Shown here: positions 281-59,369 of the stretch, one piece after another
Layout: each line of letters opens with the position of its first letter
How positions within the stretch are numbered: position 1 is the first letter of the stretch
Made by a program: the position numbers and the translations under genes
The notes under the pieces: model-generated
Database searches by the model: none
What the model was told of the DNA's origin: nothing
The model's input: only the letters and a program-made list of their open reading frames with translations
Assembly (NCBI GenBank): GCA_963971285.1
Contig: OZ020257.1
Span: forward strand, 15,948,602-16,012,601
Source: Astropecten irregularis
Taxonomy: Eukaryota > Echinodermata > Asteroidea > Paxillosida > Astropectinidae
Length of the DNA: 64,000 bases
Reading direction: 5' to 3'

Positions 281-3200
281 GAAACTAGTAAAAGATGCCA
301 AGGTCAAATTAAAGTATCAGCATCTGATCACCAACAGCTTCGTAGAGTGCAATCGTCTCATGCGCTGGTGTCCGGCACCAGACTGTCCCAATGCATTCAG
401 AGCCAGTCACCTGGAGGTCCGGCCGGTAACCTGCAAGTGTGGCCACATATGCTGGTAGGTGGACGTAGACGTTGGACAACTGCTTAAAAAGTGGGGTGCA
501 GCGTGATCTCACAAACTTTTGGCTGCCTCCAGACTCCTGACATTAAAACCCAGGAGATGCTAAGGCACTTCCTACTCATTGGTGAATATCCAACATGTTC
601 ACAGATTCTCTGATGCCTGTTTTTTGTTGTTTTCTTTTCTTTTCCCCTCTTTGGTTGTCCTATCCTGCAGCTTTTTGTGTGGAGAAAATTGGCACGACCC
701 GGTCAAATGCAAGGTGAGTGTTGAATGATCGGCCAACCTGCGTGGGCTTGTTGGCTCATTGTGGACCCCATGCCTGTCCAATTGGTCATGATTAGAGACC
801 ATCTGTCCTGTTCCATTGTGAGGGACTGGCTTTCCCACGCTAAAAGGGCGGAAGCATTAATCGGTGCCTTGCTGTGGACTAGGACTAGGTACCCTGTCCA
901 GCTCTGTCTCTCTGAAGACACCATCAGTCTTGTTTCAGTTCTTAAGGACTGGTTCCCCTATAGTGTGGAAGTATTAATTACTGCCTTGCTGTGGACAAGC
1001 CGCCCCATCCAATCCTATTTATACTATGAAGACATTGTTTTAAGTACTGATGTCTCCATACTGCATATATTCTGCGTTTTTCCTTATTTTGTTTACCCCG
1101 AATTGGAATTCATTGCAAAATGCACTTTGTTAGGCTCTGTTTTTTTAAATAATTCCCGACAACTTCCATTCCAGTGGCTGAGGAAATGGATAAAAAAATG
1201 CGACGATGACAGCGAGACGTCCAATTGGATCTCAGCAAACACCAAAGAGTGTCCGAAGTGTCATGTGACCATCGAGAAGGACGGGGGATGCAACCACATG
1301 GTCTGCCGCAACCAAAACTGCAAGGTGAGGTTTCAAATCAGTCTCCATTGTCCAAATTTTCCTCAAAAGTCACGCGGTGTAGCAACAGTGTCTTTTAGTC
1401 TGGGGAATTCATATCTTGACTATACATGTAACATTGGTTGAAGTCGGTGGTATCAGACCATTGGTTAATTTGGCTAAATTGGTTAAACAGTCTGTTGTTA
1501 ATTTTCCATATTAAGTTTGTAAACTGCAGCTTTTTATCATTGTTGCAATCTCGGTTGCCTTTTTTTTTTGTTCTTTGCAAACAGTTAAAACAAAAAAAAT
1601 ATCTTGTAATTTTAATGAAATAATTTTAAAAAAAGATAATTGATCATCAAATTCACAATCTAGTTGTTTCTGTTGACTTCTTGATGCTAGTGTCTACAAT
1701 TTTATTTCTTTCAGGCTGATTTCTGTTGGGTTTGTTTGGGACCGTGGGAGCCACACGGGTCGTCATGGTAATATTTTGTTTCATTCTTAATTTTTTTATT
1801 TTGTTTTAAAATTTTTGGGAGCAATATTAAAACCTAAATTTACAGTTGTAGATAATTAACAGAGGGCTTTTCTCCTATCGAAAAAAAAATTTCCATCTCA
1901 AAATCTTGAATTCTGTTTCAGTCATTCAACCATTAACCCAATGGACTGACAAATAATGAATTAATATAAGTAATATACATACTGCTGCAAACTGCTCATC
2001 AGCCTAAATGACCTGAAATATATAAAATGCGTCAGGAGGGCCTGACTTGTTTCGATCCTAGCAGGATCTTTCTCAAAGTCTAAATGAAGGTTTAATCTAT
2101 TTAGCCTTTGAGAAAGATCCTGCTAGGATTGAAATGCGTCAGGCCCTCCTAACTCCAAGCAAATAATTATTTAACCCGACACAGGAATATCCAACAGAAA
2201 ATCTTAATAAATATACTTCGAGACATTGGGATTAGGTTTTGGAGTATCTCTTTAATCTGAACGCTTTATAATATAGAATTTGCTGATTCAGAAGCAGTAG
2301 CGTTACTGGGTGTTAAATGGTGAAATTGAAGTGCAAACAGTTATTTGCTGACTATGCTCATTTCCTGGATCTCCTTGCTTTTATACATCCTGCAGGTATA
2401 ACTGTAATAGATTTGACGAAGAAGACGCCAAGAAAGCACGGGATGCCCAAGCAGTAAGTATCAATGGTATCACACTAGGGTTGGCTGACTGTCAGACTGT
2501 ATGGAACTTGCCAAATTGGACTGTGGCTAGATTGTCTGACTAGGGTTTAAATTTGTACTCTTCTATGACAATGGCTGTGGTTGGTCTATCTGACTATGTC
2601 TTAAATGTATACATTCATCTATGTTAGTTGCTGTGGCTGAACTCTCTGGCTAGTTTATACACTTTTCTGTGGTAGTGGCTTAACTTTATACACACTGGTT
2701 GTGGAAGCGGCTGTGTCTCTTCCCATAAACTTGAGTATAACTTCAAGCCATAGCCAGGTTATTATGGACTGGAATCCAACTTAACTACTATGTCACGGCC
2801 AACCGACCATTGCGGTGTTTTGGCAAACCGGCCCTGTCATTCTTGATCTCTTCCTGTTTTTTGTTCCTTTTATTCCTCCAGCGGTCGAGGCAAGCGCTAG
2901 AGAGATACTTATTCTATTGTAACCGCTACATGAACCACATGCAGAGTTTACGCTTTGAAAACAAGGTTAGTGTCCCATCCATTCTGTCTTGTGTGCAAGG
3001 ATTTCCCATCCTCGGCCTTCCCAATCTCATAGAGCTGCTTAAGCACCCAAATCTGCTTAAACACCAAAAACCTTTGAAAATGAAATCAGTATGCCGGCCA
3101 AAACTACTTGTGAATGTTATGCTCAGCAAACAATAGCCTGATACAAGTCAAAATCAGTAAACATCATTTGAAAATTTGGTTGGTAATCCTGTTTGATCAA

Positions 3201-12241: not shown

Positions 12242-12409
12242 GAAGGTAGGTTTGCGGTGACACCATGTAATCTCTTCTGTGAGAGTGTGTGGTTCTGAGA
12301 AGAACCGTTGGTATTATCTCGACGTTTCGAACAGTGTGATCTGTTCGTCCTCGGGAGAGTCACTCTCCTGAGGACGATTTACACATGGTGTCACCGCAAA
12401 CATACCTTC
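12242..12409. mobile_element. Palindromic element, family G
   Basis: The ends are inverse copies: GGTAGGTTTGCGGTGACACC at 12245 and GGTGTCACCGCAAACATACC near the right end. Inside are a second hairpin (GAACAGTGTGATCTGTTC) and a third (GGGAGAGTCACTCTCCTGAG). The three nested stem-loops have no ORF. It is a MITE-like foldback element, unrelated in sequence to families A-E. Confidence 0.75.
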
Positions 12410-12679: not shown

Positions 12680-12920
12680 GGGGCCAATTTCATAAAACTG
12701 CTAAGCACAAAAATTTGCTTAGCACAAAAATGTCTCGCCCAATAAAACAAACCACCATTGAAAATCCCATTTGATATTCATGGTCAGCGAACAACAGCCA
12801 AAGAGCAATCACAAGTGATACACAACACATGGACATTTGGTTGTTAACCCTGTTTTCATTAAGACAGAAATGTCATGCTTAGCAAATCTTTGTGCTTAAC
12901 AGTTTTATGAAATTGGCCCC
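12680..12920. mobile_element. MITE family A' copy 1
   Basis: It starts GGGGCCAATTTCATAAAACT and ends TTTTATGAAATTGGCCCC, a perfect terminal inversion. The interior carries TTGCTTAGCAC and TGCTTAGCAA motifs, and it matches 22808-23014. Related to family A but with a different interior. Confidence 0.85.
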
Positions 12921-13200: not shown

Positions 13201-14988
13201 TCACTTCAGTTTGGCATAAAGCGTTGGATTTTCCCGGGCATGTAACCGCCCCTCGCCGTGGAGCTCTAGCTCTGCGTACGTAAGACCCTCCACGTTGAAC
13301 TGCCTTGGGTCCTCTCGTTCCTCTGGCACCACCCTTGCCATCTGCCCGTTGATGTAGGTCGGCTCTCGTGCAAACTCGGAGCTTCTTCCAATGCCTTGCA
13401 CAACTCCATCATCGCTATTATCATCATCGTTGGCGACTTGCTCGTACAACGGATCACTCCTGCGTGTCTTCTTGTTGACTTTAGCGTAGTGTACGCCAGG
13501 AGATACGCCTGTCGTTGAGGAATCGTGTTGGTTTTGTCGCGGTGTTGTAACTGGGCGGGAGCTGCTCTGCTGCGCATGGTACTCCGGCTGTCTGGGTAGG
13601 TGTGGATCGTCAGCGAAGCGACCTCCTTCTACCACCGTCTCGTACGTGGTGTTGACGAGGTGAACGGACGTGTCGCGCCGCACTGAGGTCTTCTTGGCGT
13701 GTGATCTCTTCAGAAACACGGCCAAGGCCACGATGACGACGCAGAGCAACAAGGCAGCGGCGACACCGATGGCGATCATGGTGGATTTCGGAAGACCAAC
13801 AGCCGATGAGGTGCCATCCAGTGGTTGCGTCGGCGATGGTACCGGCGATGACCTTTGACGTTCGGTAGTGCTTTCGTCAATAACTGAGCTCCCTCCTACG
13901 GTAGCGCTGTCTGGAATAAACCTTGTCCCTGGCTGTTTTCCCATTCCCGTTGGAATTGTTACCGTCTTGAGGGTTGGTGACGGTGTCGTGTACATCGCTG
14001 TTGGTTTTGGTCGAAGTACCCTAAGAATTACTGTTGAAGATCCGGTCAGTTGCCGAGCTGTTTCCACTCGGCAGGTAATCTCCAGTCTGTCATCCCTCTC
14101 CTCTACCGAGCGCAGACGAAGCACCCTGTTATTGTCCAGCCTCTGAAATCGGCTTCTTCTTAGAGCCCTCGAGGTTTCCCAAGCGTATGAGCGAACTCGT
14201 GGTATCCCTATTCCCCTGCATAGGAACTCCACGTCGTCCCCGACCCTCGCGAAAACCGGGCCAGGGGGAATGATGGATGCGACTGGCGGGATGCTAAGCG
14301 GCATCGCGGTACAGCTCCGCTCGGCATCAATGGCCTCGGACGTCAGCTCGCACCTGAACTCCAAGCCGTTGTCCTCCGGCGTTAGCTTCCGTCGCACCCA
14401 GACATAATCGCCTTGGCTCTTTGTCGCTTCCATGGCCGTGCCGTCTCGGTACCAGACAGCTGTGGGTGTGGGGTTACCCCCTCCCCACATGCACGTTATG
14501 TCCACCGTGCTCCCGACAGCAGGCCCGGAGCTATTGGAATCTGTCACCAAATTGAAGGCACAAGTTGGCGAAGATTCATCGGGGGGCACCAACACACTCA
14601 GACGAGCGCTTCCGAGGACTTGGAAACTTTGACCCGTACCTCGATCGTCGTAGCCGCAGTAAAAGAAGCCATCGTCTTGCGATTGGACGTTTTCGATGCG
14701 AAGATTGTATTCGTGCCAGAATTCACTACCCGTGATGGAGTATCGCTCCTTGCGGTCCTCGTCAAGGGCCCTGTACACGTGTCGCCCGTTCGTCAAGAAG
14801 GTCTTGGACGGCGTGTGATACCAGAGTATGTTCTCGCCGTCACGGTAATTCACGTCGCAGTGGAGTTCAACAGTGTCCCCCGGCCGGGCTTCGGTGTCCT
14901 CCGGTCCCCTGCCGAGAGTTATTGACGACACGCTGCCGGCACAACCCAACGCCACAAGCACCGTTATTACCAAAGCCTGGAAGCTCAT
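13201..14988 (-). CDS. IgR1: single-exon three-Ig transmembrane receptor with ITIM-rich tail
   Basis: 595 residues in one uninterrupted frame. Signal peptide is about 1-22. Ig1 has C44/W56/C111 with the DDGFFYCG strand-F pattern. Ig2 has C166/C213 plus an extra flanking pair C143/C226. Ig3 has C257/W270/C306. A Ser/Thr/Pro-rich stalk (about 327-402) leads to a transmembrane helix at about 403-426 and a basic stop-transfer (KRSHAKK). Tail tyrosines lie in TTYETV (Y449), VHYAKV (Y501), PLYEQV (Y515), PTYING (Y545), LTYAEL (Y571) and TLYAKL (Y591). VHYAKV and LTYAEL fit the ITIM consensus (I/V/L/S-x-Y-x-x-L/V/I), which recruits SHP-type phosphatases. YING fits a Grb2 SH2 site. The start is in a good context (A at -3). 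No introns are needed. Ligand and exact family are unknown. The inhibitory role is inferred from motifs only. Confidence 0.88.
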   Translation of the reverse strand: MSFQALVITVLVALGCAGSVSSITLGRGPEDTEARPGDTVELHCDVNYRDGENILWYHTPSKTFLTNGRHVYRALDEDRKERYSITGSEFWHEYNLRIENVQSQDDGFFYCGYDDRGTGQSFQVLGSARLSVLVPPDESSPTCAFNLVTDSNSSGPAVGSTVDITCMWGGGNPTPTAVWYRDGTAMEATKSQGDYVWVRRKLTPEDNGLEFRCELTSEAIDAERSCTAMPLSIPPVASIIPPGPVFARVGDDVEFLCRGIGIPRVRSYAWETSRALRRSRFQRLDNNRVLRLRSVEERDDRLEITCRVETARQLTGSSTVILRVLRPKPTAMYTTPSPTLKTVTIPTGMGKQPGTRFIPDSATVGGSSVIDESTTERQRSSPVPSPTQPLDGTSSAVGLPKSTMIAIGVAAALLLCVVIVALAVFLKRSHAKKTSVRRDTSVHLVNTTYETVVEGGRFADDPHLPRQPEYHAQQSSSRPVTTPRQNQHDSSTTGVSPGVHYAKVNKKTRRSDPLYEQVANDDDNSDDGVVQGIGRSSEFAREPTYINGQMARVVPEEREDPRQFNVEGLTYAELELHGEGRLHARENPTLYAKLK

Positions 14989-15067
14989 CTTGTGGATTCA
15001 GTGGGTCTCTACTGCCAAAAGTCCAGAGCTTCAGCTTAATTCTCTACAGTAGTCCGTATTATTCGTT

Positions 15068-15074
15068 GCTTATA
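15068..15074 (-). promoter_or_regulatory. TATA-like box upstream of IgR1
   Basis: TATAAGC on the minus strand lies about 80 bp upstream of the IgR1 ATG, which would give a short leader. It is a weak match and could be chance in AT-rich DNA. Confidence 0.3.
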
Positions 15075-17089
15075 GTATGTTCGTAAGGATAATGCTATAC
15101 TCTTACCGTCGTATCTTTGACTTCAGAGGCAGAACATCAATTGACATGATCCCAGTGCCGGTGGTGGATAAGTTCTGTTGTCATTTGCATGTGCTCTTTA
15201 ATTGTAAACTTCAAAGATTGTTGAGATTTTATAGTCTGATGAAACATCTTTCAGCTCAATTGGGACGAAGCTCTACCCTCACAAGCAAACTGAGCTGTAA
15301 TACCAATCCCTTTTGAGCTATCATGCGTGGTATTATAGTGCGATGATAACACACAAACGAAACAAGGAAAGCCACTGATATCTTTCTGTCCACCGGAAAA
15401 CTGAGTCAAATCACGGTCACTTTGGTGGGCACGCCAGTGCAGATTCGGTGTGGGTTGTGCAACTGGGCCTAATCACATGACAGCGGATCATGTTGGGGAG
15501 TGCGTGTGTGATGATGGCTTCGATTTGACGGATGACGGAACCCTGGTTTGGGGTGAATCGTGTCAAGCAAAATGGCCCAGAGATTGGAATATGGGATTGG
15601 GAAAGATCCTTATAGGGCTTTAGACCATGCAGAAAGATCATTATCTCGGGGCTGGGAATGAATGAACCCCGATGAAACAAACGAAATCTGCCATACCGTC
15701 TCTTGATTGTTTCTGTCAGGACCGGGGTTGGTGCTGGTGCAGGCTTAAAAAATAAACTGTTCGGGCCGGTTGTCCCTTCCTCCATGTGCTTGTGGACCTG
15801 CTGTTCTTTTGGTTTGGTTGTCTATCCTGTCTCTAACATGTCCTACGTTGTTCACTGTAATTATTCTTATACGTAAAGGTAATGTTTATCTTACGTATCT
15901 CCGTAGTATGGTCGAACACCGTAGAGTCGACGGTGTTGTCATCAGATTCTTTCAGTTCAGCTACTCAATTGTGAGGCAAAGTATCCCGTTGATTTCCAGC
16001 CGTTTTATCATTTGTTATTCTTGTTCACTTTGCGAAATTGAGATGAAATAGATAAAACATGGCAGTATAGGCCTTTTGCACATCACACACAATCATAGTA
16101 AGGATTGCGTGCGTTACAAATGAGATTGGATTTACACTGATCGTAAGGTAAGCCAGTCACTACACCATCACCAATTTACCAGGCAACCTGTTCCCCTGAG
16201 CAAACCAGACGGACCTCGGAAACTTTTAATGAAGTGCTTCCCCTTTAAGCTTATAATGTTGTCATACAACCCATCGAAGCCGCCCCGTTTGCCAGGGTCC
16301 CTGTAACAGCTAGAACTTTCATGCATCGGGATTATAATGGAAACAGGTATAGTTACATAGGCCTACATGTACGCTGCGCTAACCATGCGTACGGTCTTGC
16401 CGGCACCTAATAAGTAATCATTATAAAATGCTTGGGAGTTAGGAGGGCCTGACGCGTTTCCATCCTATAGCAGGATCTTCATCGAAGACTAAAGATCTTG
16501 CTTGGATCGAAACGCGTCAGCATTACGCCAAGCATTTTATAAATTTCAGGTCATTATTTTGGCTGATGAGCAGTTTGCAGCAGTTTTTTTTACTTGTATA
16601 TTTTTGATACTTGTATTGAAGTAATAATCATAAAAAGTCGCCGTCCGTTGCCCGTTGTTTGTGTGAAACTGGTTTATGCATGTCAGTACCGACAGAGGGC
16701 GCTGTTTGGTTTTATCAATTTATTTTTCTATTAATTCTATAGTATGTGTTTTTACAGAGCTGTAGAATGTAGACTTCCTTCACTCATTCCGATCTCGAAT
16801 GTCCTTTATAATTGTACACTCCGTACAAAAGTCGATGGTGAAGGGCAGTCCATAAATGGCGATTGAAATCATTACGTGAATATGTCGAAACTGATGTGCA
16901 TGACGAGTATTTCACCCATGAAATGATCTTAGTCATATATTTTCCTGTGACGATAGTCACGTGAGATTGACGTCATCCCTATACAGCATTTTAACCACTA
17001 ATCATGCCATACGCTCCCCACTATGGTTATTCGTCACTGTGGTTTTACTTGTTCACGACGGAATAGTTATGTACGATTGTTGTTTACAT
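15075..17089. other. Spacer between divergent IgR1 and IgR2, first part
   Basis: No gene recognised. The 122-codon frame at 15417-15785 (minus) shows no domain. The only structured element is a family F palindrome at 16421-16590. Confidence 0.5.
16421..16590. mobile_element. Palindromic foldback element, family F (copy 2)
   Basis: TTATAAAATGCTTGGGAGTT opens the element and GCCAAGCATTTTATAA is its inverse. The arms carry GAGGGCCTGACGCGTTTCC and GGATCGAAACGCGTCAG. The right flank GGCTGATGAGCAGTTTGCAG is shared with the copy at 46521. Confidence 0.75.
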
Positions 17090-17452
17090 AAAGGTACTAT
17101 CATACTTTGGTTTTTATCAAAGAAATACAGATTCATGGGCAAACCTATTAAGACGGATACAGTAACAGTCATCTGTGAAAATTTCAGTCCTCCCATACGG
17201 TGCCTACTTTTTGAGAAAACAGTGAAAAACAGCCACAGTATTTCTATTCCCCCCTCTTTTTTGTTGATCTTTTAAAAGATCAAAACCATTTTCGGTCGTT
17301 GTTTTACTAATTTCTGGATAAATACACCATTTCAGGCGGAAATATTTTAACGGTATGTTTCTACCACCACCATCTTCAGACCCTGTAAGTTATTCGTAAA
17401 TCTGTGGACATTTCTGTTTTGGTTTCTTAAACAAAGTATGATACTACCTTTA
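17090..17452 (+). mobile_element. TTAA-type MITE, family H (copy 1)
   Basis: About 370 bp with termini AAAGGTACTATCATACTTTG and its inverse ACAAAGTATGATACTACCTT. The interior has ATACAGATTCATGGGCAAA, ATCTTTTAAAAGATCAAA and AATATTTTAACGGTATGTTT. Copies occur at 19165, 23583, 29413 (inverted), 35579 and 43511. No ORF spans it. Confidence 0.85.
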
Positions 17453-18786
17453 AGGATATGTCCAAGTTTCAGCGTGTCCATATAAAGGACAGTCCCGTGA
17501 CAAGCCGAGAATATGCGGGGTGGTTCGCTGCCAGTGTCCGGTCTGGTATGTCGAATTTCCGGTATACCCTTACTACTATGCATACAAAAGTGCACATCAT
17601 GACAGGAAAGGGTCAGGGGTCATCTGGTATCATTGAGGCATTTCCGGCCTGGGCAGTCACTGGGCATGAGATTGATTAATCACAGTGAATAGTTGCTATT
17701 ACATGTAATATCTTCTAACATGATTGTGACTCACTTAGTACGGCCATCGGGCACTCGGTAGCATTTTGCAATGCTCAGACACATTTTCGAAATTTCAACT
17801 TCGTCGTTTTTGAAAATACCAACTCTTCAGTTTGTTTCGATACCGAGAATTATACTGTTTGTTGTTTTGCATCCCCCCATGTCTTTTCATGTCTTTTTAC
17901 TCATTTGAAAGAAATTGAGCAAGTTTCAGAAGCTTATAACCAACACCATCACCAACTAGTGTCACCAACTCCTAGATGTCGCACTTGTCATTAAAGGCAC
18001 GTTGACTTGCGTACAAGGCACCACTTTGATGAAAAGTCTTGGGTTTTTGAAAATAAAAGTATAGGGTTTTGTCATTTCCCTTTAATGTTTGCGTCAAATG
18101 AAGCAAATCACTGGAATTTCAATTCGAGGTGGGTCGCTCTGCAGGCCACGCCCCCAACGAGGCAATTAGACACTCGTAAGTTGTCATTCAGGTCATTCTT
18201 CAAAACGAACTTTTTTTTTGGGGGGGGGGGATATACCTTTCTCGGTAAAAGTACTAATTGCCCTTCCTTTTTAAAAGAAAACATCATGTGACAATGTGAC
18301 AGGACCCAGTTCACAAGTTATGCAAACAAAATGTAATCTCAGTTATGAAAACATAAGTCTTGGCTGTCGCACACACGAACCCATACACCCTCTAGCGAGT
18401 TGCCACGATTTGGGCCGAATACATGACCAATTATATGAATCTTTAATCTTTCAATTTCTTTATCAAAAGCCTATTGTTGTTTTCAAATGGACTTAAAATT
18501 GAATGAAACGTTAACCATGTGTCATTACGTACACCGATGAGTAATGATTTGATTACGAACCAAACTGTCGAAAAAACACTTCTTCAGTACGTGCAATTAA
18601 AACTGATTGTCATGATGACTGGATTTGATGAAAGGATGTGAACGCAAAGTAAAGATAGTTACTACGTTCCATGAGATTAAAGAACCGCTTCAAGTGTGTT
18701 TCCATTGCAATGCGTGGAATTAAAACCCAAATATTATCTGTATGATATATTGAAGTCACTGAATGATTAGAGTTAGGAGGCAATTT
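17453..18786. other. IgR1-IgR2 spacer, second part
   Basis: No gene recognised. Features are a G-run at about 18222-18230 after a T-run and ordinary AT-rich DNA. Short frames on both strands lack domains. Confidence 0.5.
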
Positions 18787-18925
18787 GGGCCGATTTCATA
18801 AAACTTACGACGCGTCGCAGAGTTAAGACGCATCCTTTCTCTATGGACTCGTCGCATCTATCCGACGCTAGGACGCCTCGCAAATCGAGTTGCGACGCGT
18901 CGGAGAGCTTTATGAAATCGGCCCC
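18787..18925. mobile_element. Palindromic MITE, family D
   Basis: The ends GGGCCGATTTCATAAA and TTTATGAAATCGGCCCC are perfect inverses. The arms carry the repeated word GACGCGTCG (left CGACGCGTCGCAG, right GCGACGCGTCGGAG). The 139-bp hairpin is non-coding and is the only copy of this interior in the window. Confidence 0.85.
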
Positions 18926-18929
18926 AGGA

Positions 18930-19062
18930 TATTTCACGATCCTTTCTCAAAGGCTTCGAGAAAGATCCTACTAAAGGGTCGAAACGTCAGACCTTTGTTT
19001 ATTAAAACTCCAAGCATGTTCGGCTCATTATTGTAGTCAATGAGGAGTTTGCAGCAGTTTAT
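18930..19062. mobile_element. Foldback element, family F (copy 3, degraded)
   Basis: It retains CGAGAAAGATCCTACTAAAG, GTCGAAACGTCAG and the flank GAGTTTGCAGCAGTTTAT found in the other copies. One arm is mostly lost. It abuts the family D element. Confidence 0.6.
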
Positions 19063-19164
19063 AACTTGCATTGATTCAGTCATTTAATGGAACTGTTGTG
19101 TCCACAATTCGACTTCCATAAACAACTGTTTAGATATAGCTCCTGTTGATTGTTGCAAAAAAAA

Positions 19165-19514
19165 GTTTGCCCCTTTTAAAGTTTCATGGTAGTATCATAT
19201 AGTAATGTTGATACAACAGCTTCGGTATATCCAGAATGTGATTTGTCATGGAATAAAAACAAACCTGTGAAATTTTCAGCCCAATTGATCATTGGAAACA
19301 GTAGAAAACAGCGAAAACCGTTGCGATAATTGTCACGCGAAATTGTTAGGTAATTGTAATTGTGGGGTTTTGATAAATGTAGCATTTTAAGGCGGAAATA
19401 TTTTAACGGTATTTTTGTAGCAGGTCCATCTTCATAACCTGAAAGTTGTACGTAAATTGGTGAACATTTCTGTTTTGGTTTCCTACCGAAGTATGGTAAT
19501 TCATGTACCTTTAA
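19165..19514 (+). mobile_element. TTAA-type MITE, family H (copy 2, diverged)
   Basis: The right 130 bp (GGCGGAAATATTTTAACGGT to AGTATGGTAATTCATGTACC) match family H. The left half is diverged but keeps a GGTAGTATCATA terminus. Confidence 0.65.
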
Positions 19515-19839
19515 GTCACCGTTGGACACACAGGAAAAACTACCCTGTCATGGAGGTCACAGATGACCTTGAAGACCATACCCCACGGAAAGGACAATGG
19601 TGTTTTAACACGTGAGATAATAATTGACGTAATACCAGAAACTGTCTTCCGTTCAGCACCACTAGCGGATGTTAGCTTTGGCCTCATGCTTTGGTCCAGA
19701 ATGGCACGGTTACCTTTACCACGGTGATACAAGATTGCTACCCTACGCCCACATCTTCTCACGGTGCATGAGGTATGACGAAGCAGACATCGTGAATGAC
19801 TTGGTATTTTTTCCACCAGAATTAAAAGTTTTGGGTGAT
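19515..19839. other. 5' flank of IgR2
   Basis: No recognisable gene. The stretch runs from the family H MITE to the TATA box of IgR2 and is the likely proximal promoter region. No specific factor sites are called. Confidence 0.4.
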
Positions 19840-19846
19840 TATAAAA
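19840..19846 (+). promoter_or_regulatory. TATA box of IgR2
   Basis: TATAAAA lies 56-62 bp upstream of the IgR2 ATG. Transcription starting about 30 bp downstream would give a leader of only about 30 nt, consistent with an intronless gene that has its own core promoter. No start-site data are available. Confidence 0.5.
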
Positions 19847-19901
19847 TACTCAAGAAGTTGTAGATTTGACAACCGAGAAAGGACAGAAATAGCCTACAGC
19901 C

Positions 19902-21815
19902 ATGTGGACTTTATTTTGTTGGCCGTTTTTGGTAACGTTGGCTGCATTGGTTGGGGAAATCGCTGCCATTTCAATTGTTCAAGCACCTCAGGACCAATCG
20001 ATCTTAGTAGGTGGTACCGTGATCTTTCGTTGCACCGTCCGCAATAAGGGAAGCTTCAAGGTCTACTGGCGTTTCGACAGGACCGAGACCTACCTCTCCG
20101 CCGACACGGTCTTTTTCGAGGACGCCCGGGACCCACAGTTCAGCCTCGTGGGCAACCATGCCCTGGGCCAGTTTAACCTGAGGATCACCAATGTCCAGCC
20201 AAGGAATGCCGGCGTGTATCGGTGTGGCTTCGTTCCTGTGGGGAGCACGACCCTTACCTCTAGGTCGGCCAGGCTGACCGTGCTGCTACCGCCCGATGAA
20301 GGCTTCCCACGGTGCGAGGTGACTCCGCCGGCAGGCATGATCAGTTTGGGACAACGGGCAACGTTGACGTGCACGTCTCAGGGCGGTGTACCGCCAGCCT
20401 CGCTCACCTGGCTACAGAACGGGATGGAAATCTCCCCCGTGGTCATGCAAAGGAACGTCATCCAGAAGACCTTCGACTCGGACTTGAACGGAGTGCGTTT
20501 AACCTGTCGGGCGACAAGCCCGGCCTTCATGGAGGTACGTACCTGTTCGATAATCCCCTTAAATATACCTCCGACCGTCCGCGTGGACCCTCCTCAGTTG
20601 ATTACAAGACCCGGAGAGAATGCCATGTATCGCTATACTGCAGGTGGGGTGTCGCCAATCGTCGAGGTCACCTGGAAATTCGGTGTTATCATCGTTTCTT
20701 CTTTGGATCGCGATGACCGGTTTCTGCTCTCTGAAAACTTTAGGACATTAACCATCCTCGACGTACGATTAGCAGATGACCTTACCTCTGTGCAGTGTAC
20801 GGTGGCGACGATTACAGGGCTGTCGGCTACTGCGGGGGCTTTGCTGAGGGTCCTTCCTCCTACAACTGAAGCCGTTACTCTGACCGCCACCACACTAACC
20901 CCTGACCCGAACATGACAGAACCTTTGCCCACACAAGCCTTCGCGACAGGCTTGGGAACAGTTGCCATTATCCTGATTATCATTGGGGGTATAGTGGTGT
21001 CCCAAATCATCGTCGCCATTGTGGTTTACGTATCTCATAAGGTGTCGGCTTCTACCCGGCGTGGAGGTGGTCGACCGATGCGAGGCGAGTCCATAGTACC
21101 GTCATTAGCGGGTTGGCAGTTGGCGGCCGGTACTCAGGCGGCCGGTACTCAGGCGGCTGGTGCGCCGTCGGCCCCACCCTACCAAGATCTGGGCGAGCCC
21201 GACAGGTCCGCAAGCGCCAATCGTTACCTGAGCCTGCACCCCTTACGAATGCCGCCCTATCGGTACTCCACCCCCGACGTGGGCATCTACGAAGCCGCAT
21301 CTGAACCAATCGTGGTCGAGTCGGGATACGTCATGCAAGGAGGAACCGAGTACTACGAATACAGAGATTCCATGAACACCGTGTACAACGCCTACCAACC
21401 GGCATTGCGTGCTAGCGCCCTCAATCCGGTAGTCTACGAACAACCCAGGCAAAGTGTCAACGCTCAAACTGCGACAGACGACGACGACTACGACTACGAC
21501 CAGCCGCCAAAGGAGGACCACGACACCAACCAGCCTAGTATCTACTACGAGCCGCCATTGGACACGAAGTTATCTTCCTTATCCGACACCGAGACCGAAG
21601 ACTACGAGCTTCCGCCCGTCCAACCTGATCTTAACCGTACCGAAGGGCCGCCACCACGCGTAACGTCCTGTGCTGATGTTGACGATGACGAATACTGCGA
21701 GCCACCGACGGAAACGTCGCACCAATCTACGGATAGAGACAAACTCGACGATGCGCATGTCTATGACGTAGCGCCCGAGGACGATGACGAGTACGAGGTT
21801 CCGAATCCGAAGTGA
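19902..21815 (+). CDS. IgR2: single-exon three-Ig transmembrane receptor with YxxP adaptor-docking tail
   Basis: 637 residues, no intron. Signal peptide is about 1-22. Ig1 has C44/W56/C108 (NAGVYRCGF). Ig2 has C157/W170/C202 plus an extra C138/C215 pair. Ig3 has W258 and C299, but the first cysteine is replaced by tyrosine (Y245, codon TAT at 20634-20636), so its canonical disulfide is missing. The transmembrane helix is at about 352-377. A 15-bp tandem duplication encodes AAGTQAAGTQAAG (about 408-420). The tail is very rich in Tyr and Asp. Seven YxxP motifs are at Y455, Y512, Y532, Y549, Y568, Y598 and Y631. This is the docking code for Crk and Nck SH2 domains, and the acidic residues before many of the tyrosines suit tyrosine kinases. 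No strict ITIM is present. The linker words PPDExxPxC and C-x(3)-PL-x-IPP are shared with IgR1, so the two are paralogues. Confidence 0.88.
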   Translation: MWTLFCWPFLVTLAALVGEIAAISIVQAPQDQSILVGGTVIFRCTVRNKGSFKVYWRFDRTETYLSADTVFFEDARDPQFSLVGNHALGQFNLRITNVQPRNAGVYRCGFVPVGSTTLTSRSARLTVLLPPDEGFPRCEVTPPAGMISLGQRATLTCTSQGGVPPASLTWLQNGMEISPVVMQRNVIQKTFDSDLNGVRLTCRATSPAFMEVRTCSIIPLNIPPTVRVDPPQLITRPGENAMYRYTAGGVSPIVEVTWKFGVIIVSSLDRDDRFLLSENFRTLTILDVRLADDLTSVQCTVATITGLSATAGALLRVLPPTTEAVTLTATTLTPDPNMTEPLPTQAFATGLGTVAIILIIIGGIVVSQIIVAIVVYVSHKVSASTRRGGGRPMRGESIVPSLAGWQLAAGTQAAGTQAAGAPSAPPYQDLGEPDRSASANRYLSLHPLRMPPYRYSTPDVGIYEAASEPIVVESGYVMQGGTEYYEYRDSMNTVYNAYQPALRASALNPVVYEQPRQSVNAQTATDDDDYDYDQPPKEDHDTNQPSIYYEPPLDTKLSSLSDTETEDYELPPVQPDLNRTEGPPPRVTSCADVDDDEYCEPPTETSHQSTDRDKLDDAHVYDVAPEDDDEYEVPNPK

Positions 21816-22180
21816 TCTGACAAATGCCGAAGTGATCCGACACATTCAGAAGTGATCCAACAAATTCCGAGAACCTGAAACAATAACAGTACTGTAGACT
21901 GAAGTTTAGTTGGTTTGTCGATATCAGTACTATGGGACAAAACTGCTTAGGAATTCCGTGCATTTTATCCATGTAGAATTAATTTAGAATTTGTGCTAAT
22001 TTACTTTCATTACTAGTGAAAACCAGACAATTCGACTGTTTTGAATATCTATGAGTAAATATGTGACGTCACACTTTAGCGATCTTTCTGTTCTGCATTT
22101 GTCTATGCCCCATAATCAGTTTGGTCCATGCATATTCATAATGTCAGACTTTGAGGATCAAGCTTGAGTTTCCTGTATAA
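21816..22180. other. IgR2 3' flank
   Basis: Just after the stop, three short repeats of GAAGTGATC(T/C)(G/A)ACA follow one another (from the stop codon to about 21862). The closest poly(A)-like word is CAATAACAG near 21881, which is not canonical. No other feature is seen. Confidence 0.4.
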
Positions 22181-22316
22181 GGCCGTGTCCCAAATATCTG
22201 GCTGCGGCCGCAAATAACACACGCACCTATGGCAGCCACTAGCCAGTGACTGCAGCCGTTTCCATAGACTTGTGCGTTATTTGCGGCCGCAGGCAGAGTT
22301 TTGTATTGACACGGCC
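22181..22316. mobile_element. Palindromic MITE, family E
   Basis: The termini GGCCGTGTCCCAAATAT and TATTGACACGGCC are imperfect inverses. The inner arms are GGCTGCGGCCGCAAATAACA and TGTGCGTTATTTGCGGCCGC, near-perfect inverses. The centre has GCAGCCACTAGCCAGTGACT. Non-coding hairpin with GCGGCCGC in both arms. Confidence 0.8.
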
Positions 22317-22430
22317 ATACATTGACAAAATGTAACAGTGGTCCTATCGATACACCTGAAAAGGAGAAAAGGCTTCATAAGGCTTGACAAATTGGATTTG
22401 TCTATTATTTAATTTTAATCTCATTTCCTT

Positions 22431-22684
22431 GGGCCAATTTCATAGAGCTGCTTAAGCACAAAACTTGCTTATGCATTAAAAGTCTTCCTTGATCAAACAG
22501 GATTACCAACCAAATTAATGTTCATGTGATGTTTAATACTTTTGACTTGTATTCGGCCAATGTTTGCTGAGCATACTATTCACAAGAAGTTTTGGCTGGG
22601 CATACTGGTTTTCCTATTTTTTAAAAAGTGTTTTGGTGCTTAAATAAGTTGTGGTCTTTAAGCAGCTCTGTGCATTTGGCCCCT
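22431..22684. mobile_element. MITE family A (full copy)
   Basis: It runs from GGGCCAATTTCATAGAGCTG to CAGCTCTGTGCATTTGGCCC. The interior carries TCTTCCTTGATCAAACAGGA and CTTTTGACTTGTATTCGGCC, matching the copies at 3021 and 36308. Confidence 0.85.
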
Positions 22685-22807
22685 GGAAACTTTTATTGAG
22701 AAGTTGTTTTTCGTTTATGATTTCAAGGAGCTCTTAGATGAATCAATTGTATAGGCCTAAGCCCTTTTATCAAATGTTTGTCATCCAAGCCCCTATTGGG
22801 GCCCTGT

Positions 22808-23014
22808 GGCCAATTTCACAGCGCTGCTTAGCACAAAAATTTGCTAAGCATGACATTTCTGTTTTGATAAAAACATCGTTTGTGATAGTTCTTTGGCTGC
22901 TGTTTGCTGCCCATGAATGTCAAATGAAATTGTTAACGGTGGCTTGTTTGATTGGGCAAGACATTTTTGTGCTAAGCAAATTGTTGTGCTTAGCAGCTCC
23001 ATGAAATTGGCCCC
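22808..23014. mobile_element. MITE family A' copy 2
   Basis: It starts GGCCAATTTCACAGCGCTGC and ends GCTCCATGAAATTGGCCCC. The interior GACATTTCTGTTTTGATAAA is the inverse of the matching stretch at 12680-12920, so the two copies lie in opposite orientation. Confidence 0.85.
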
Positions 23015-23582
23015 TGTGCGATTCATGGGCAGATGTCATTTCTTCAATGATAAGACCAACCTCTTTGCCAAAATGGTCTAGCCATAATCCCGACCTGTCA
23101 TTATTGGGCTGACGGATATTATGAATATAATTGTACACTGCAGATTGTCTTCAACATCCGTGTTACCTGACATCCGAACATACATTGTGTGCATTACTAC
23201 TGGTGCCATAAGGGCTCTCTACAAGCCAATAAGTGACGTCATATCTATTTATATGGATGTGAAGTCTTCAGCTTATTCAATTTACTCCTTGAATTCTGAA
23301 AAGTTCAAAAATTATTTCATAATTATATTTCGGCACTTTCCGTGGAGCGTAGAGCCTACTTCATGCTATGAAAAGTACCAACTGTGGAATTTGTACGATG
23401 TAAATAAAATACAGTGGCGCCTTGTCACATTGGAGTGTGCACTGTCTAAGCAGCTATAAAACACTTAAAAATTGCTAATTAATCAAAACAATTTTTTTTC
23501 TCTTTCTTTTTGGGGGAAATTAGCAAGATTCACGAAGTCGCCGGCCTGTCCCTGCGTAGTATATGCCTTGTTTGTTTCGATG
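23015..23582. other. IgR2-IgR3 spacer, no gene recognised
   Basis: AT-rich DNA with one 112-codon frame (23121-23459) that shows no recognisable domain. Confidence 0.5.
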
Positions 23583-23935
23583 AGGTAATATCATACTTAT
23601 TTTTTTGGTCAATGAAATACAGATTTGTGGGAAGAAATATCAAGGAAGATACAATAACAGTCATCTATGAAAGTTTCAGTCCTATACGGTGTTCACTTTT
23701 TGAAAAACGACAACAGTGAAAAACGGCCACATAATTTTTAAAGTATTTTTCGCATTTATTTGTGATCCTTAGAAGATCACAAAAAATTGTAATTACTGGT
23801 TTTTCTCTTTTCTAAAAAGGAAATATTTTAACGGTATGTTCATGCCATCACCATTTTTGTACCCTGTAAGTTATAGGTGAATCTGTGAAGATTTCTGTTT
23901 CGGTATGCTGCCAAAGTATGATACTACCTTCAACC
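23583..23935 (+). mobile_element. TTAA-type MITE, family H (copy 3)
   Basis: It runs from GAGGTAATATCATACTTATT to CCAAAGTATGATACTACCTT and includes AGTTTCAGTCCTATACGGTG and GGAAATATTTTAACGGTATG, as in the other copies. Confidence 0.8.
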
Positions 23936-24987
23936 ACTTTTCTTTGTAAATATATACCCATGCAGACATTTACCACGGAAGACAAAATTAAGCGAAGATC
24001 AAGAGAAAAAATTAATTTTGTACATTTTATTTTGATGAACAAGAATATAATTATTTACATTCACAAAACCACATTTTAGTAAATGTCCCCCCAAAACGCA
24101 ACACTTTTTGTTGAGAACTATTTATCACTTCAAGATTCAGATGATACAACCATGTCTTGGCTACCACCATGTAGAATTTGAGCAAAATTGGACTGAAATT
24201 GAGAGAAAAAACTAAGACTGAATTACCCAACCTCAAAACCCAATTTCCATCTTTCTTTCAATACGCATTATGTCTATATTGACCACTTATTCTGGAATAC
24301 TACAAATTAGTTTTAAAGAATACTCTTTTAATTGGTCACATTTTCGGCAATTTCAGCTTGATTTCTCTTAAATTCTACATTGTGATAACCAAGACAAGGG
24401 CGATCATATAACTGTAGCTTGAAGTAATAAACAGTTAAATTTTAACATAATGGTTCCCGACACAGTGTTGCGTTTTTTTCTGGGTCACCCTGTATATTGT
24501 AACATTTGATTTGTCTTTCAAAAGTGCGGTTATTTCCACGTTGGTGCGTGATCAGGTTTTGTTTCTGTAATAGATTTTCACCAGGAAGCAAGTTATTGTC
24601 AATTGAACTACAGACACGGATAAGGGAGATTACTAACGAGTATCTCCATTCAATGTTAGATTATGAGACTATGTAAGAACACACACACCTGCGGAACGGA
24701 TCGTAGACTAGAGCCAACTCCTGTCTGAATTCAACCAACAGAGGGCGACATTCAAAGCATTATTGCAGTACGTGATGACATTGCGGGGTTAATGTCACGT
24801 ATTTTTGCTGTTCTGTTTACCTTTGACAAAGGGAAAGACTCCTATCAAATACTTCAGTGCTACACAGTAAATTAATGAACATGTACATTAAAAATTTTTT
24901 TAGAGTTAGTTCATTACGCTTGCCACTTCCTCTAATTAAAAATCGATCTTTTACCGGTCGTTGATACTGATGCTTTCAGTAGCTCGG
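23936..24987. other. 3' flank of IgR3, no gene recognised
   Basis: AT-rich sequence. A weak inverse relation is visible between CAACACTTTTTGTTGAGAAC (24100) and CAGTGTTGCGTTTTTTTCTG (24463), bracketing ATGTAGAATTTGAG/CTTAAATTCTACAT. This suggests a decayed inverted-repeat element of about 400 bp (roughly 24085-24495). Confidence 0.45.
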
Positions 24988-26334
24988 TTAATCGATTAGA
25001 TTGTCAGTCTCAATCACTTTAACCGTGGTGCTTCCCCTTCGACTCCTGGAAACCGAGAGAATTTGAAGCACCTTGGAATATTCGGTGGAGTCCTTTTGGG
25101 TATCGCTGGACGGTCCAGGAGCCGGGCATTCGCGGTCTCCGTCACCGTCCGCACCGAAGTCCAGGAATGCGTACGTAACATCGCAAACGGAAGACTCCAT
25201 GTCCGCATCGCAGTTCTCGTAGTCGGCCTGGTGCGGACGGATATTTTCGTAATGGTTGCAGCTGTTGGGTAGGGATAGTCTGATGCCGGGACAGTCGTGG
25301 CTGTCGGTGTCGATGTAAGCGTAAAAATGGGAGGCCGCGTCCATACTGTGTTGACTCCTGCAGGTATTGTAATACGCGGGGAGGGAGGAGCTACAGCTAG
25401 GTCGGTCTATATGGACACCAGGCTCGCTCGGGCAATGTACTCCCAAGATCATGTTCTCGTAAGCCCCGTAACCACACGTAACGGACACACTGTTCCGTGA
25501 GGCTGGTCTCAAAGTATAGCTCATCCGCGGAGTCAGAGAGGCGCTGTGACCACAGTGCATCTCCCTCAGATCCTCGTATGTTACGCACCGAGGAAGCTGA
25601 AGGCTACCGGCGTGTGCTTGCTTGCCTTTCTCCATGATAGAATCATCTGTAGTAGGGCACCACATCGCTGGTATCTTGTTCATATAGTCACTGGAGGAAC
25701 GCTCTCTTCCCAGACTATCCGGGTCGGTTTTGTCATCCGATGATGTCCAGTGAATGAAGAGCTTCACCGCTAACATGAGGAGTAGAAGGATGATGACCAC
25801 GACCAATGCCGCTCCGAGAATCAAGGTGTTGGACGTGCCACTGAGAGCCGACACGGTGCTGAGACTCCTTGCCGTGGAAGAGGAGTAAGATACCTGAGCT
25901 ACGGTCCCGGCGGTGGTTGTCGTCATCTGGTCGCTTTCGTGCTCACTCCCCTGGCTGACCATCCGCGACGGAGGCGCCGTGGCCCCCGCCGTCTCCACGA
26001 TAATCCTGCCGGTGCCTTTCCTCCGGCTGCTGCTACCGTCGGCGGTCCGGAAGATGCAGGACACGTCGGTCCCGTTATCCGTAGAATGTACGTCGGTGAT
26101 GTGGACGGTTTGACGGCGGTCGTCGTCGTAGTAGTAGCGGGTCTCCTTTGCGATTCTGACGGCAGCCTCCCAGGAGAATTTGCTAACGGCGTTTCCTGCC
26201 TCTTCCGGGTCCACATGGCACGTGAAGGTGGCGGTAGAACCAACCCTCACCCTCGCCTCCTGCGGCCGAACAGTGACATCCACCGTACTTGTCATGGCGG
26301 TCAAGACACACTTGTGATCCTGACCAGTACCCAA
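24988..26334 (-). CDS. IgR3: Ig transmembrane receptor with ITIM/ITSM tail, 5' end unresolved
   Basis: 448 codons are counted from a TTG that is probably not the real start. The frame is open upstream only to a TGA at 26422-26424, and no signal peptide is visible. A plausible splice acceptor (CTGGTCAG before GATCACAAG) lies just inside, so upstream exons may supply the N-terminus. One Ig domain is clear (C39/W55/C93, DNGTDVSC), followed by a Ser/Thr stalk and a transmembrane helix at about 169-194. The tail has YMNK (Y217), VTYEDL (Y253), YENM (Y292), YENI (Y362), YENC (Y372), VTYAFL (Y388) and TEYSKV (Y419). VTYEDL and VTYAFL fit ITIM, TEYSKV fits ITSM (T-x-Y-x-x-V/I), and YENM fits both PI3K and Grb2 SH2 sites. 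The ITIM-then-ITSM order is that of PD-1-like receptors. The domain resembles Ig3 of IgR1. A 5'-truncated but still open relic is the alternative. Confidence 0.7.
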   Translation of the reverse strand: MGTGQDHKCVLTAMTSTVDVTVRPQEARVRVGSTATFTCHVDPEEAGNAVSKFSWEAAVRIAKETRYYYDDDRRQTVHITDVHSTDNGTDVSCIFRTADGSSSRRKGTGRIIVETAGATAPPSRMVSQGSEHESDQMTTTTAGTVAQVSYSSSTARSLSTVSALSGTSNTLILGAALVVVIILLLLMLAVKLFIHWTSSDDKTDPDSLGRERSSSDYMNKIPAMWCPTTDDSIMEKGKQAHAGSLQLPRCVTYEDLREMHCGHSASLTPRMSYTLRPASRNSVSVTCGYGAYENMILGVHCPSEPGVHIDRPSCSSSLPAYYNTCRSQHSMDAASHFYAYIDTDSHDCPGIRLSLPNSCNHYENIRPHQADYENCDADMESSVCDVTYAFLDFGADGDGDRECPAPGPSSDTQKDSTEYSKVLQILSVSRSRRGSTTVKVIETDNLID

Positions 26335-26424
26335 CCAAGTTCTAAACGTGAAGCTAGTGATTTTACTGAAGGTAATCTCGCATGTTAGTTGTGTTGCCTC
26401 GAAAGTTGCCGGTGGGGGAAATCA

Positions 26425-56417: not shown

Positions 56418-57019
56418 TTAGATGGAGGAGTCTTCCTCTCCTGGCGGGAGCCTCTCCGTTTTCGTGGTCATGCTTATGCTGATCCCCGTGCGCTCTTTGT
56501 ATCCACCGCCAAAGCAAGATGAGAACATTTTCCTGAAGTACTTCCTGAAGCCCGTGGTGGTGAAAGCGTACACGAAGGGGTTGACACAGCTGTTGGCGTA
56601 GGCTAGACACACAAACGTGCCCTGCATGCTCATGAGTACATCCATGCTGGTAAGTGCCATCCGCGTGACCGCCTCGGGATTGGACCGCGACCAGATGGCG
56701 AATATTTGGATCGGCGCCCAGCAGAACGCGAACAGGACCACGACAATGAAGACCATTCTGGTGATCTTCCTCTTCCTTCGGAGGGCACGGGTGTGGGCCT
56801 GGGCGCTCTCTGTCCCTCCCGACGTCTTGCGCCAGATCTGCAGCAGGATTTTCGCGTAGCAGAACATGATGCCACTCAGCGGCACGATGTACATAGACAG
56901 CAAGGAGAAGACGGCATAGACTTTGGTACTGACCTCCGGGTTCGGAAATGCACTGTCACAGTTTCCATGCTCCGAAAGGTTCGTAAAGATAAATGTTGCA
57001 AGGTGGATCAGGGACGAGA
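56418..57019 (-). CDS. Peptide GPCR terminal exon B (TM4-TM7 and tail)
   Basis: The exon starts at 57019 after a clear acceptor (TTCTCTTTGGCAG) and runs to its own stop at 56418. It encodes about 199 residues. They include TM4 (VSSLIHLATFIFTNLS), ECL2 with the conserved cysteine (HGNCDSAFPN), TM5 ending CYAKILLQIW, and an ICL3 ending RALRRKRKITR. TM6 has FAFCWAPIQIF and TM7 has ANSCVNPFVYAF (NPxxY), followed by a basic helix-8 stretch (FRKYFRKMF). No initiation codon or TM1-TM3 is attached, so it must be spliced to an upstream exon. Its phase (two leading bases, TC) fits the TM3 exon ending at 59234. The best match is the kisspeptin (GPR54)/galanin-like receptor group. Exon A, 105 bp upstream, is a clear duplicate. 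Confidence 0.85.
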
Positions 57020-57124
57020 CTGCCAAAGAGAACAAAAAGACACGAGAACAAAAAGAGAGTTACAAATAGTCTGTTTCCCCAGCTAGCTCTCTCAAACCAG
57101 TTAGGCACCAATAGCTGTACATAG

Positions 57125-57705
57125 CTACAGCACTGACTCCTCCTTGCCAGATGTTAAACGATCCACTTTGGTTTTCGCCGTGACACTATTGTTTTTGCCT
57201 TCCCGGTGGAAAGTGCCGTAGCAATGTTGAAAGAAATGCTTAAAGTACTTTCTGAAACTCGTGGTGGTAAACGCGTAGACAAACGGATTGACGCAGCTAT
57301 TTAGGTACGCAATGCTCACGAACGCACCGTGCATGCTACTGACATTGGCCGGGTAATCGCTTCGGTGGAACAGAGACCAGGTGTTGAAAATCTGGACGGG
57401 TGCCCAGCAAAGGGCGAAAAGGACAACCACGATGAAAACCATCTTGGTGACTTTACGCTTCCTCTGGAGGGCGCGGGACTGTGCCCCCTCCGTCCACTCG
57501 GACGTGTTCTGCTTCTGCCAGATTTGAATGAGGATTTTAGTGTAGCAGAAAAGGATAACCAGTAGCGGCAGAGCGTACATCAAGAGAAACACGAAGATGG
57601 CGTACATATCGGCGCTGGCCTGTCCATTGGGGAAATGCCTCGAACACTCGTTCTCATAACTGAGACGGGTGAACACAAACGACGCTAAGTGTATCAACGC
57701 CGAGA
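57125..57705 (-). CDS. Peptide GPCR terminal exon A (TM4-TM7 and tail)
   Basis: The exon starts at 57705 after the acceptor TTTTATACACTCAG and ends with a stop at 57125. It encodes about 192 residues. They include TM4 (VSALIHLASFVFTRLS), ECL2 cysteine (ENECSRHFPN), TM5 (CYTKILIQIW), and ICL3 ending RALQRKRKVTK. TM6 has FALCWAPVQIF and TM7 has LNSCVNPFVYAF, followed by FRKYFKHFF. It has the same leading phase as exon B, and both open with TCTCG. TM6 shares the identical run MVFIVVVLFA with exon B, while ECL2, ECL3 and the tail differ. No poly(A) signal is visible in the 105 bp before exon B, so transcripts ending in exon A may carry exon B as 3' UTR. Confidence 0.85.
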
Positions 57706-59233: not shown

Positions 59234-59369
59234 CTATCCAAATGGTGATGTTGATTATCACCGCTTTCATCACCGTTCTCGTGTTTCTGGACTTGACGGC
59301 GTGCACGATAAGGTAGTAGCGGTCCACTGTCATGGCCGTCAGCGTGAAACAAGTGGCCTGCACGGTGAC
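59234..59369 (-). CDS. Peptide GPCR TM3 exon, kisspeptin-receptor-like
   Basis: 136 bp bounded by the acceptor TTCCTTTCCTGCAG and the donor ATAG/GTAAG. It encodes VTVQATCFTLTAMTVDRYYL, then IVHAVKSRNTRTVMKAVIIN and ITIWI. The word QATCxTLTAM(S/T)VDR(W/Y)Y is characteristic of kisspeptin receptors (GPR54), and DRY-type residues are present (DRY). The start after the VxVQATC border matches my memory of the vertebrate KISS1R exon layout. The final G plus TC from either downstream exon gives valine, so both A and B keep frame. TM1-TM2 exons are not in the window and presumably lie beyond 64000. The kisspeptin assignment is from memory of the family; galanin or allatostatin-A receptors are the alternatives. 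Confidence 0.8.

Follow-up and report, generated by a model that had tools for sequence, protein, structure and literature searches.

The 64,000-nucleotide stretch of Astropecten irregularis DNA analysed here (the window; C21:15,948,602-16,012,601, contig OZ020257.1) contains three reading frames for immunoglobulin (Ig) receptors with a transmembrane segment (TM), located at 13201-26421: IgR1 (- strand), IgR2 (+ strand) and IgR3 (- strand). All three are members of a large, mostly single-exon family of Ig transmembrane receptors. Members of this family have common tyrosine modules in their tails, these modules are conserved, and some of the genes are mosaics. We consider it rather probable that we are dealing with a large single-exon Ig family in which tails with immunoreceptor tyrosine-based inhibition motifs (ITIM) or YxxP motifs would dock partners with opposing outputs, with swapping in gene arrays and with a tail switch convergent with that of vertebrates.

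A large family of single-exon receptors

The first-pass annotation of this DNA had proposed a search for a lineage-specific family, and such a family exists and is far larger than three genes. With IgR1 as query, 58 places were found in the species' own genome (475.7 Mb, 168 contigs), 57 of them within reported open frames of at least 393 codons. L043 as query added seven new places with long frames, and L044 matched 91 places, mostly on C29 and C20. Altogether, one of four queries (IgR1, L043, L044 and IgR3) matched each of 112 distinct places whose frame spans at least 350 codons, 43 of them on C29, 25 on C12, 20 on C21 and 24 elsewhere. This list required Ig similarity at E <= 1e-3 and a long frame, and frames below 350 codons or with internal stops were left out; since only the best-scoring candidates were counted, members may be missed, and some of the more distant entries could be single-exon Ig genes of other kinds. 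One of the 112, at C21:15.79 Mb and outside the 57, is listed as open and translates as two frames (216 and 360 aa). The 112 places include ten clusters of at least three genes, six of them with all genes in one orientation. A crude test for a methionine plus leader was passed by 51 of the 57 frames examined.

Alignment of 25 chosen ectodomains revealed nine invariant columns, including the cysteine pairs of the first and second Ig domains (D1 and D2). A further invariant pair, C146/C229 in the numbering of the first row, opens and closes D2 in 25/25 ectodomains, and the words of this pattern, PPDExxPxC ... CxxxPL, are the signature of the family. The words PPDExxPxC and C-x3-PL and the residues C44/W56 (counted from the methionine) had been noted as common to IgR1 and IgR2; we confirm all of them and find the two words family-wide. 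The two receptors are, as had been proposed, paralogues with different tails, and they are ~27-28% identical. In the ectodomain tree of the family, long branches are numerous and 21 forks are open; thus, we make no claim on the deep relations within it.

One-orientation arrays of single-exon Ig receptors related to L044 were also observed at C29:0.54-0.65, 13.25-13.28 and 13.52-13.56 Mb and at C20:14.16 Mb. They contain 13, 9, 10 and 5 genes, respectively, and tails were read for few of them.

Tyrosine modules in the receptor tails

The tail analysis covered 57 tails, after leaving out copies of window genes (L001, L056), a broken frame (L025), a frame of 200 aa (L037) and an antisense frame (L034). 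Several tails have the same order of modules, namely P[LI]YAxP[DN]K, then G-L-x-Y-A-[DE]-L-[DE]-L (an ITIM) and then, near the end, T-x-Y-A-x-[IV], which is similar to an immunoreceptor tyrosine-based switch motif (ITSM). In comparison to shuffled tails, we found YAx[LIV] 43 times (versus 3.6), strict ITIM 24 times (7.5), TxYxx[VIL] 18 times (4.1), YxxP 78 times (38), YxN 38 times (21), [LIV]YAxP.?K 13 times (0.04) and YEN 16 times (1.2). The pair [AILV]xYAx[LVI]...YAx[IVL] is present in 11 of the 57 tails, with a shuffle mean of 0.001, and its carriers are spread over C21 and C12 and over several clades. The spacings within this YA pair are 20, 23, 24, 24, 24, 26, 26, 26, 27, 34 and 38, so that nine of the eleven lie between 20 and 27. 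An Ig ectodomain combined with ITIM and ITSM at the spacing for a tandem-SH2 protein was found for IgR1 and ten other tails. Alanine directly follows the tyrosine (pY+1) in 15 of 22 strict ITIMs versus 84 of 421 tail tyrosines overall, counted in 56 tails with one of the IgR1/IgR3 tails left out.

The YAxP module of the family forms an array in the tail of L054 (C29:7.23 Mb), with five YAMP sites, YAMPDK in four cases and YAMPEK in one.

IgR1 has the C-terminal pair and no YxxP. Its features are as follows:
13201-14988, - strand: IgR1, Ig receptor encoded by a single exon, 595 aa and a stop codon (leader, three Ig domains, TM, 170-aa tail)
13714-13776, - strand: TM of IgR1 (residues 405-425; hydropathy 3.1)
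13633-13650, - strand: TTYETV, ITSM-type motif
13477-13494, - strand: VHYAKV, ITIM-type motif
13267-13284, - strand: LTYAEL, motif, ITIM of the family's C-terminal pair
13207-13224, - strand: TLYAKL, ITSM-like motif, second of the pair and 20 residues downstream of LTYAEL

The protein starts with a methionine and a hydrophobic leader and has one TM and three Ig stretches (Pfam Ig_3, E 7.7e-21); the AlphaFold model of the ectodomain has a pLDDT of 92. The ITIM-type motifs that had been read in the tail proved to be well beyond shuffles of this tail, with four broad ITIMs against a shuffle mean of 0.36 and three YAx[LIV], both reached in 0/2000. A chance origin of the tail motifs was rejected by the shuffle counts for IgR1 and likewise for IgR2 (below).

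The first-pass annotation had named unrelated adhesion proteins with tyrosines that are not conserved among orthologues as the result that would refute its interpretation. For the IgR1-type tail, paralogues and two Acanthaster proteins retain the pair; no orthologue of IgR1 itself was found. These two proteins, P0005 and P0006, were found with the L002 tail as sole query (E 1.8e-17 and 8.8e-4), are both encoded on one 61,546-base contig and keep the YA pair with spacings of 27 and 28. In an alignment of nine tails, seven of which were chosen for having the pair, seven of the ten invariant columns lie within the YA motifs.

Mosaic genes in a tandem array

At C21:2,692,384-2,716,664, 13 Mb from the window genes, six family genes are located head to tail in 24 kb. 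Two of them, L005 and L009, share 97.5% identity across 2,161 bp, starting upstream of the gene and running through the TM, after which their tails differ. The synonymous divergence (dS) between L005 and L009 is 0.04 in D1, 0.09 in D2-D3 and 1.50 in the tail; the corresponding values are 1.06, 0.10 and 0.11 for L005-L006 and 1.23, 0.15 and 1.29 for L006-L009. Of the four possible combinations of two D1 types with two tail types, three are thus present on a common D2-D3. For sites at which L005 agrees with only one of L006 and L009, the ratio is 223:20 before a break near residue 353 and 8:122 after it (reached in 0/2000 permutations). The long tail (L005/L006) has the ITIM and ITSM-like pair and no YxxP, and in the short tail (L003/L009/L011) the pair is absent, with two YxxP and one match to the broad ITIM (SSYWTV) present. 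L005 and L009 therefore show what defines paired receptors: a near-identical ectodomain and different tails in one cluster. For the three window genes, which had been described as a paired locus, this does not hold, IgR1 and IgR2 having the identity of ~27-28% given above; the true pairing lies at C21:2.69-2.72 Mb.

L022 and L033 were considered as tail swaps relative to L043 (C12:19.07-19.09 Mb) and rejected, because stop codons cut their tails.

IgR2 and its sea-star orthologues

The second window gene has YxxP only and no ITIM/ITSM pair in its tail:
19902-21815, + strand: IgR2, Ig receptor encoded by a single exon, 637 aa and a stop codon (leader, three Ig domains, TM, ~260-aa tail)
20964-21026, + strand: TM of IgR2 (residues 355-375)
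21180-21236, + strand: YQDL-x11-YLSL, similar to an immunoreceptor tyrosine-based activation motif (ITAM) with long spacing; both tyrosines invariant in five proteins
21264-21803, + strand: YxxP array, seven separate sites, eight with overlap

IgR2 begins with a methionine and a hydrophobic leader and has one TM and three Ig stretches (Pfam Ig_3, E 6e-20). The seven YxxP motifs that had been reported are present as seven separate sites, or eight when overlap is allowed, above the shuffle mean of 2.4 (reached in 2/2000). At E <= 1e-3 the protein search returned four proteins only, with 44-55% identity, including Patiria miniata LOC119737556, Acanthaster planci LOC110990371 and Asterias rubens LOC117295642. 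In full alignments, IgR2 and the Patiria protein are 59.9% identical, Patiria and Asterias 54.9% and Acanthaster and Asterias 48.9%. IgR2 is no more distant from Patiria than sea stars are from one another, in agreement with the earlier assignment of this DNA to an invertebrate deuterostome. The ectodomain tree unites IgR2 and the four orthologues in one group (100/99), within which IgR2 joins Patiria and Acanthaster with weak support (87/47); a small rooted tree of IgR2, the orthologues and three paralogues did not settle its place among the sea stars.

The tail tyrosines of IgR2 are conserved among its orthologues, so that here, too, the proposed refutation did not occur. The five tails contain 8, 11, 8, 13 and 15 YxxP (shuffle means 1.8-2.8); some orthologues have more YYEPP repeats, and thus the number of sites varies while the motif stays. 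Upstream of the array, Y427 and Y442 form the invariant ITAM-like YxxL-x11-YLxL, the spacing of which exceeds the usual 6-8.

The tyrosine motifs might be by-products of one ancestral tail with a composition rich in tyrosine and proline, without a signalling function. Shared ancestry does account for a part of the enrichment, and the stop codons in the tails of L022 and L033 show that some copies decay. However, the motif residues are kept between clades and species although much of the tail differs, and in the gap-free tail columns of the five IgR2 proteins 11/19 tyrosines are invariant versus 64/208 columns (hypergeometric p 0.009). We therefore regard this explanation as very improbable.

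IgR3

The features of the third frame are:
24988-26421, - strand: IgR3 open frame (end of D2, D3, TM, 258-aa tail; 5' part of the gene not found)
25765-25827, - strand: TM of IgR3 (residues 199-219)
25162-25179, - strand: VTYAFL, possible counterpart of the family GLxYADLDL block (matched by eye)
25069-25086, - strand: TEYSKV, motif of the ITSM type, 31 residues after VTYAFL

The frame begins within D2 ('LTCEITF...HKCVLTAM', aligned to where D2 ends in other family members) and has no leader. A tblastn search of the window with 57 family ectodomains found no convincing D1/D2 exon elsewhere (best outside match E 0.08 among the matches listed, those of the three window receptors being set aside). 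Of the three Ig transmembrane genes that had been reported in 13 kb, IgR1 and IgR2 are complete receptors, and IgR3 is incomplete in its frame. The reading that the window contains a complete three-gene paired cluster was rejected, since IgR3 is without D1 and most of D2. When the genome was searched with IgR3, the query locus and two weak matches were returned. By tblastn, L058 at C21:5.99 Mb is the paralogue closest to IgR3; its ectodomain is comparably short, and thus both may have upstream exons.

In the tail of IgR3, YxN occurs five times (shuffle mean 0.46, reached in 0/2000) and the broad ITIM three times (reached in 42/2000). TxYxx[VIL] of the ITSM type and YxxM occur once each, reached in 236/2000 and 696/2000, respectively. 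From the combination of ITIM, ITSM and YxN/YxxM ascribed to this tail, YxN thus stands beyond the shuffles, whereas the counts of ITSM and YxxM alone are within chance. The ITIM/ITSM spacing (31) is looser than in most family pairs. With the pair and no YxxP in IgR1, YxxP only in IgR2, and a looser pair with YEN/YxN in IgR3, the three tails may be derivatives of one composite tail.

L014 (C21:5.996 Mb), with the hemITAM-like DGYTVL in its tail, adjoins L058 and also L012, which has an ITIM/ITSM-like pair. The three are possibly a set of activating and inhibitory neighbours.

Signalling partners and proposed mechanism

Candidate partners are encoded in the genome. At C29:10.067 Mb lies an SH2 exon with a match to the C-terminal SH2 of SHP2 (PDB, E 1.4e-39), with more SH2 matches just upstream on the same strand, and one at C17:9.408 Mb matches ZAP-70/Syk (PDB, E 9.4e-37). 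L059 and L060 (C21:7.41 and 3.14 Mb) are two different SH2 exons, presumably CSK-like. Expression in Patiria eggs has been reported for Syk, Csk and a BLNK-like transcript (PMC11593052).

Judging from the motifs, ligand binding would lead to phosphorylation of the receptor tail by a Src-family kinase. The C-terminal pair of ITIM and ITSM-like motif (IgR1, probably IgR3) could then dock a tandem-SH2 phosphatase of the SHP2 type and restrain the cell, and the YxxP arrays (IgR2; LYAxPDK sites elsewhere) could dock SH2 adaptors of the Crk/Nck type, which would promote positive signalling and drive actin. In the tandem arrays, ectodomains and tails would be swapped by gene conversion or unequal crossing-over, so that one recognition surface could be wired to different outputs. 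The likely setting would be coelomocyte or other cell-cell recognition, and the switch would work like those of the vertebrate SIRP, Siglec and BTLA receptors and would most likely have arisen by convergence.

Several results weigh against this mechanism. None of the 7,993 proteins scored in the search with IgR1 reached E <= 1e-3, 46 of the 57 tails are without the YA pair, and YxxM is not enriched in the tails (8 versus 8.7). The shuffles treat close paralogues as independent, and the C-terminal blocks of L002, L005 and L006 are very similar. The ITAM at a spacing of 6-8 shows no excess (one, reached in 112/500 shuffles). At the looser ITAM-like spacing of 6-12 there are six sites (L016, L018, L041, L053 and IgR2) versus 0.66, reached in 0/500, and due to this excess IgR2 could also be an activating receptor. 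Among the TMs scanned, three have a central charge, one of them basic (L028), and a classical activating partner was not seen. In addition, the predicted ectodomain fold is closest to adhesion receptors, with Kirrel-type folds among the best matches; sequence and fold matches in the PDB are scattered over many Ig proteins, adhesion types first.

It might also be possible that the family is an adhesion or fusion family of the Kirrel/nectin kind without a role in immunity, in which the YxxP of IgR2 recruits Crk/Nck for actin at contacts and ITIM-like sites tune adhesion. Nephrin, Sns and Kirrel proteins recruit Crk/Nck and act on actin at contacts, and for IgR2 this is a strong rival. However, ~100 loci, tandem arrays, tail swaps and a mosaic D1 are more typical of recognition families, and a tandem ITIM/ITSM pair is not known for Kirrel proteins, which counts against adhesion as well. 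For the family as a whole we consider adhesion a serious but less probable explanation.

The array genes might alternatively be polymorphic receptors for self and non-self with inhibitory and other tails, as in the allorecognition systems of Botryllus (FcoR) and Hydractinia (Alr). FcoR, with tails carrying ITIM, hemITAM or core YxxI/L/V, is the nearest published analogue that we found, and its switchable outputs resemble the D1 and tail mosaics and the hemITAM-like motif of L014. Against this, the data come from a single genome, and the strict hemITAM pattern (2 versus 0.28) was reached in 16/500 shuffles. Allorecognition appears quite unlikely to us, and inhibitory and adaptor tails in a large recognition family remain the preferred explanation.

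Other features of the window

The GC content of the window is 38-55% in 2-kb bins, and that of third codon positions (GC3) is 0.62-0.63 in IgR1 and IgR2. A tRNA scan of the window found none, and the Rfam scan gave a histone stem-loop as sole match. This histone 3' stem-loop (12267-12311, - strand) is above the Rfam gathering score, and no histone-like frame of at least 70 aa is located just upstream. A repeat has two copies near the receptor genes (12680-12920 and 22801-23019); with its inverted ends of 45-50 bp (GGGGCCAATTTCATAAA...) it resembles foldback elements or miniature inverted-repeat transposable elements. At 56418-59549 (- strand), three frames match the rhodopsin-type G protein-coupled receptor family 7tm_1 and are probably exons of two or three receptors. 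An IBR exon of the RING-between-RING type is located at 725-1441 (+ strand).

Comparison with known systems

In vertebrates, the two tyrosines of PD-1 (Y223/Y248) and of BTLA (Y257/Y282) are 25 residues apart (PMC7078208; PMC8631942), and alanine at pY+1 is conserved in the ITIMs of BTLA, SIRPalpha and Siglecs (PMC8631942). The sea-star family differs from receptors of the SIRPalpha/Siglec/BTLA/PD-1 type in that its genes are intronless and some members have YxxP in the same tail. Furthermore, it has the conserved extra cysteine pair in D2, DAP12-type partners were not seen, and its sequence matches do not point to any single vertebrate family. The first-pass annotation had left open whether the locus is convergent with or ancestral to KIR/Siglec/PD-1-type clusters. 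Intronless genes and the adhesion-like predicted ectodomain favour convergence, and for the same reasons the family as an ancestor of vertebrate families was rejected. This suggests that a putative switch of the ITIM/ITSM type arose independently in echinoderms.

The p130Cas, SLP-76 and BLNK docking tails have arrays of acidic YxxP/YEPP sites like that of IgR2; the sea-star array is located in the tail of an Ig receptor and not in a cytosolic adaptor. In every echinoderm examined the gene kirrelL is without introns, which may be due to retrotransposition, and skeletogenic cells require this gene for their fusion (PMC8903837). It shares with IgR1 and IgR2, although not with IgR3, the single-exon Ig transmembrane structure in sea stars; KirrelL is described as one skeletogenic fusion gene, and tail motifs do not come up in the available part of its description.

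ITIM-bearing Ig families have been published for Botryllus (53 FcoR loci) and Hydractinia (PMC12065747). FcoR is likewise a large Ig transmembrane family of an invertebrate deuterostome with variable tails, some with ITIM. In contrast to FcoR, which has a sushi domain and alternative splicing, the sea-star family is single-exon with mosaics and YxxP arrays. The FcoR layout of V-Ig, sushi and two C2-Ig was not found, and the three window receptors gave no sushi match, only Ig families passing the Pfam cut-offs. For echinoderms, we found no description of a family of ITIM Ig receptors in the open-licence literature; a 2026 review of echinoderm immunity names the expanded TLR, NLR and scavenger receptor sets by which the subject is commonly presented, and in its available part the word ITIM is absent (PMC13428168).

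We propose tentatively, giving it somewhat less than an even chance, that a germline system of paired receptors evolved independently in sea stars. Starting from an Ig gene without introns and of the Kirrel-like kind, the family would have expanded to ~100 or more loci, with a composite YxxP, ITIM and ITSM tail resembling the SHP-recruiting tails of vertebrates in motif and spacing, and recombination of D1 and tail between neighbours (2 x 2 mosaics) would provide one and the same recognition surface with inhibitory or adaptor output. A large Ig family with SHP-type inhibitory tails and with tail swapping in arrays would give echinoderm immunity or cell recognition an inhibitory arm and would be an independent replicate of the evolution of paired receptors.

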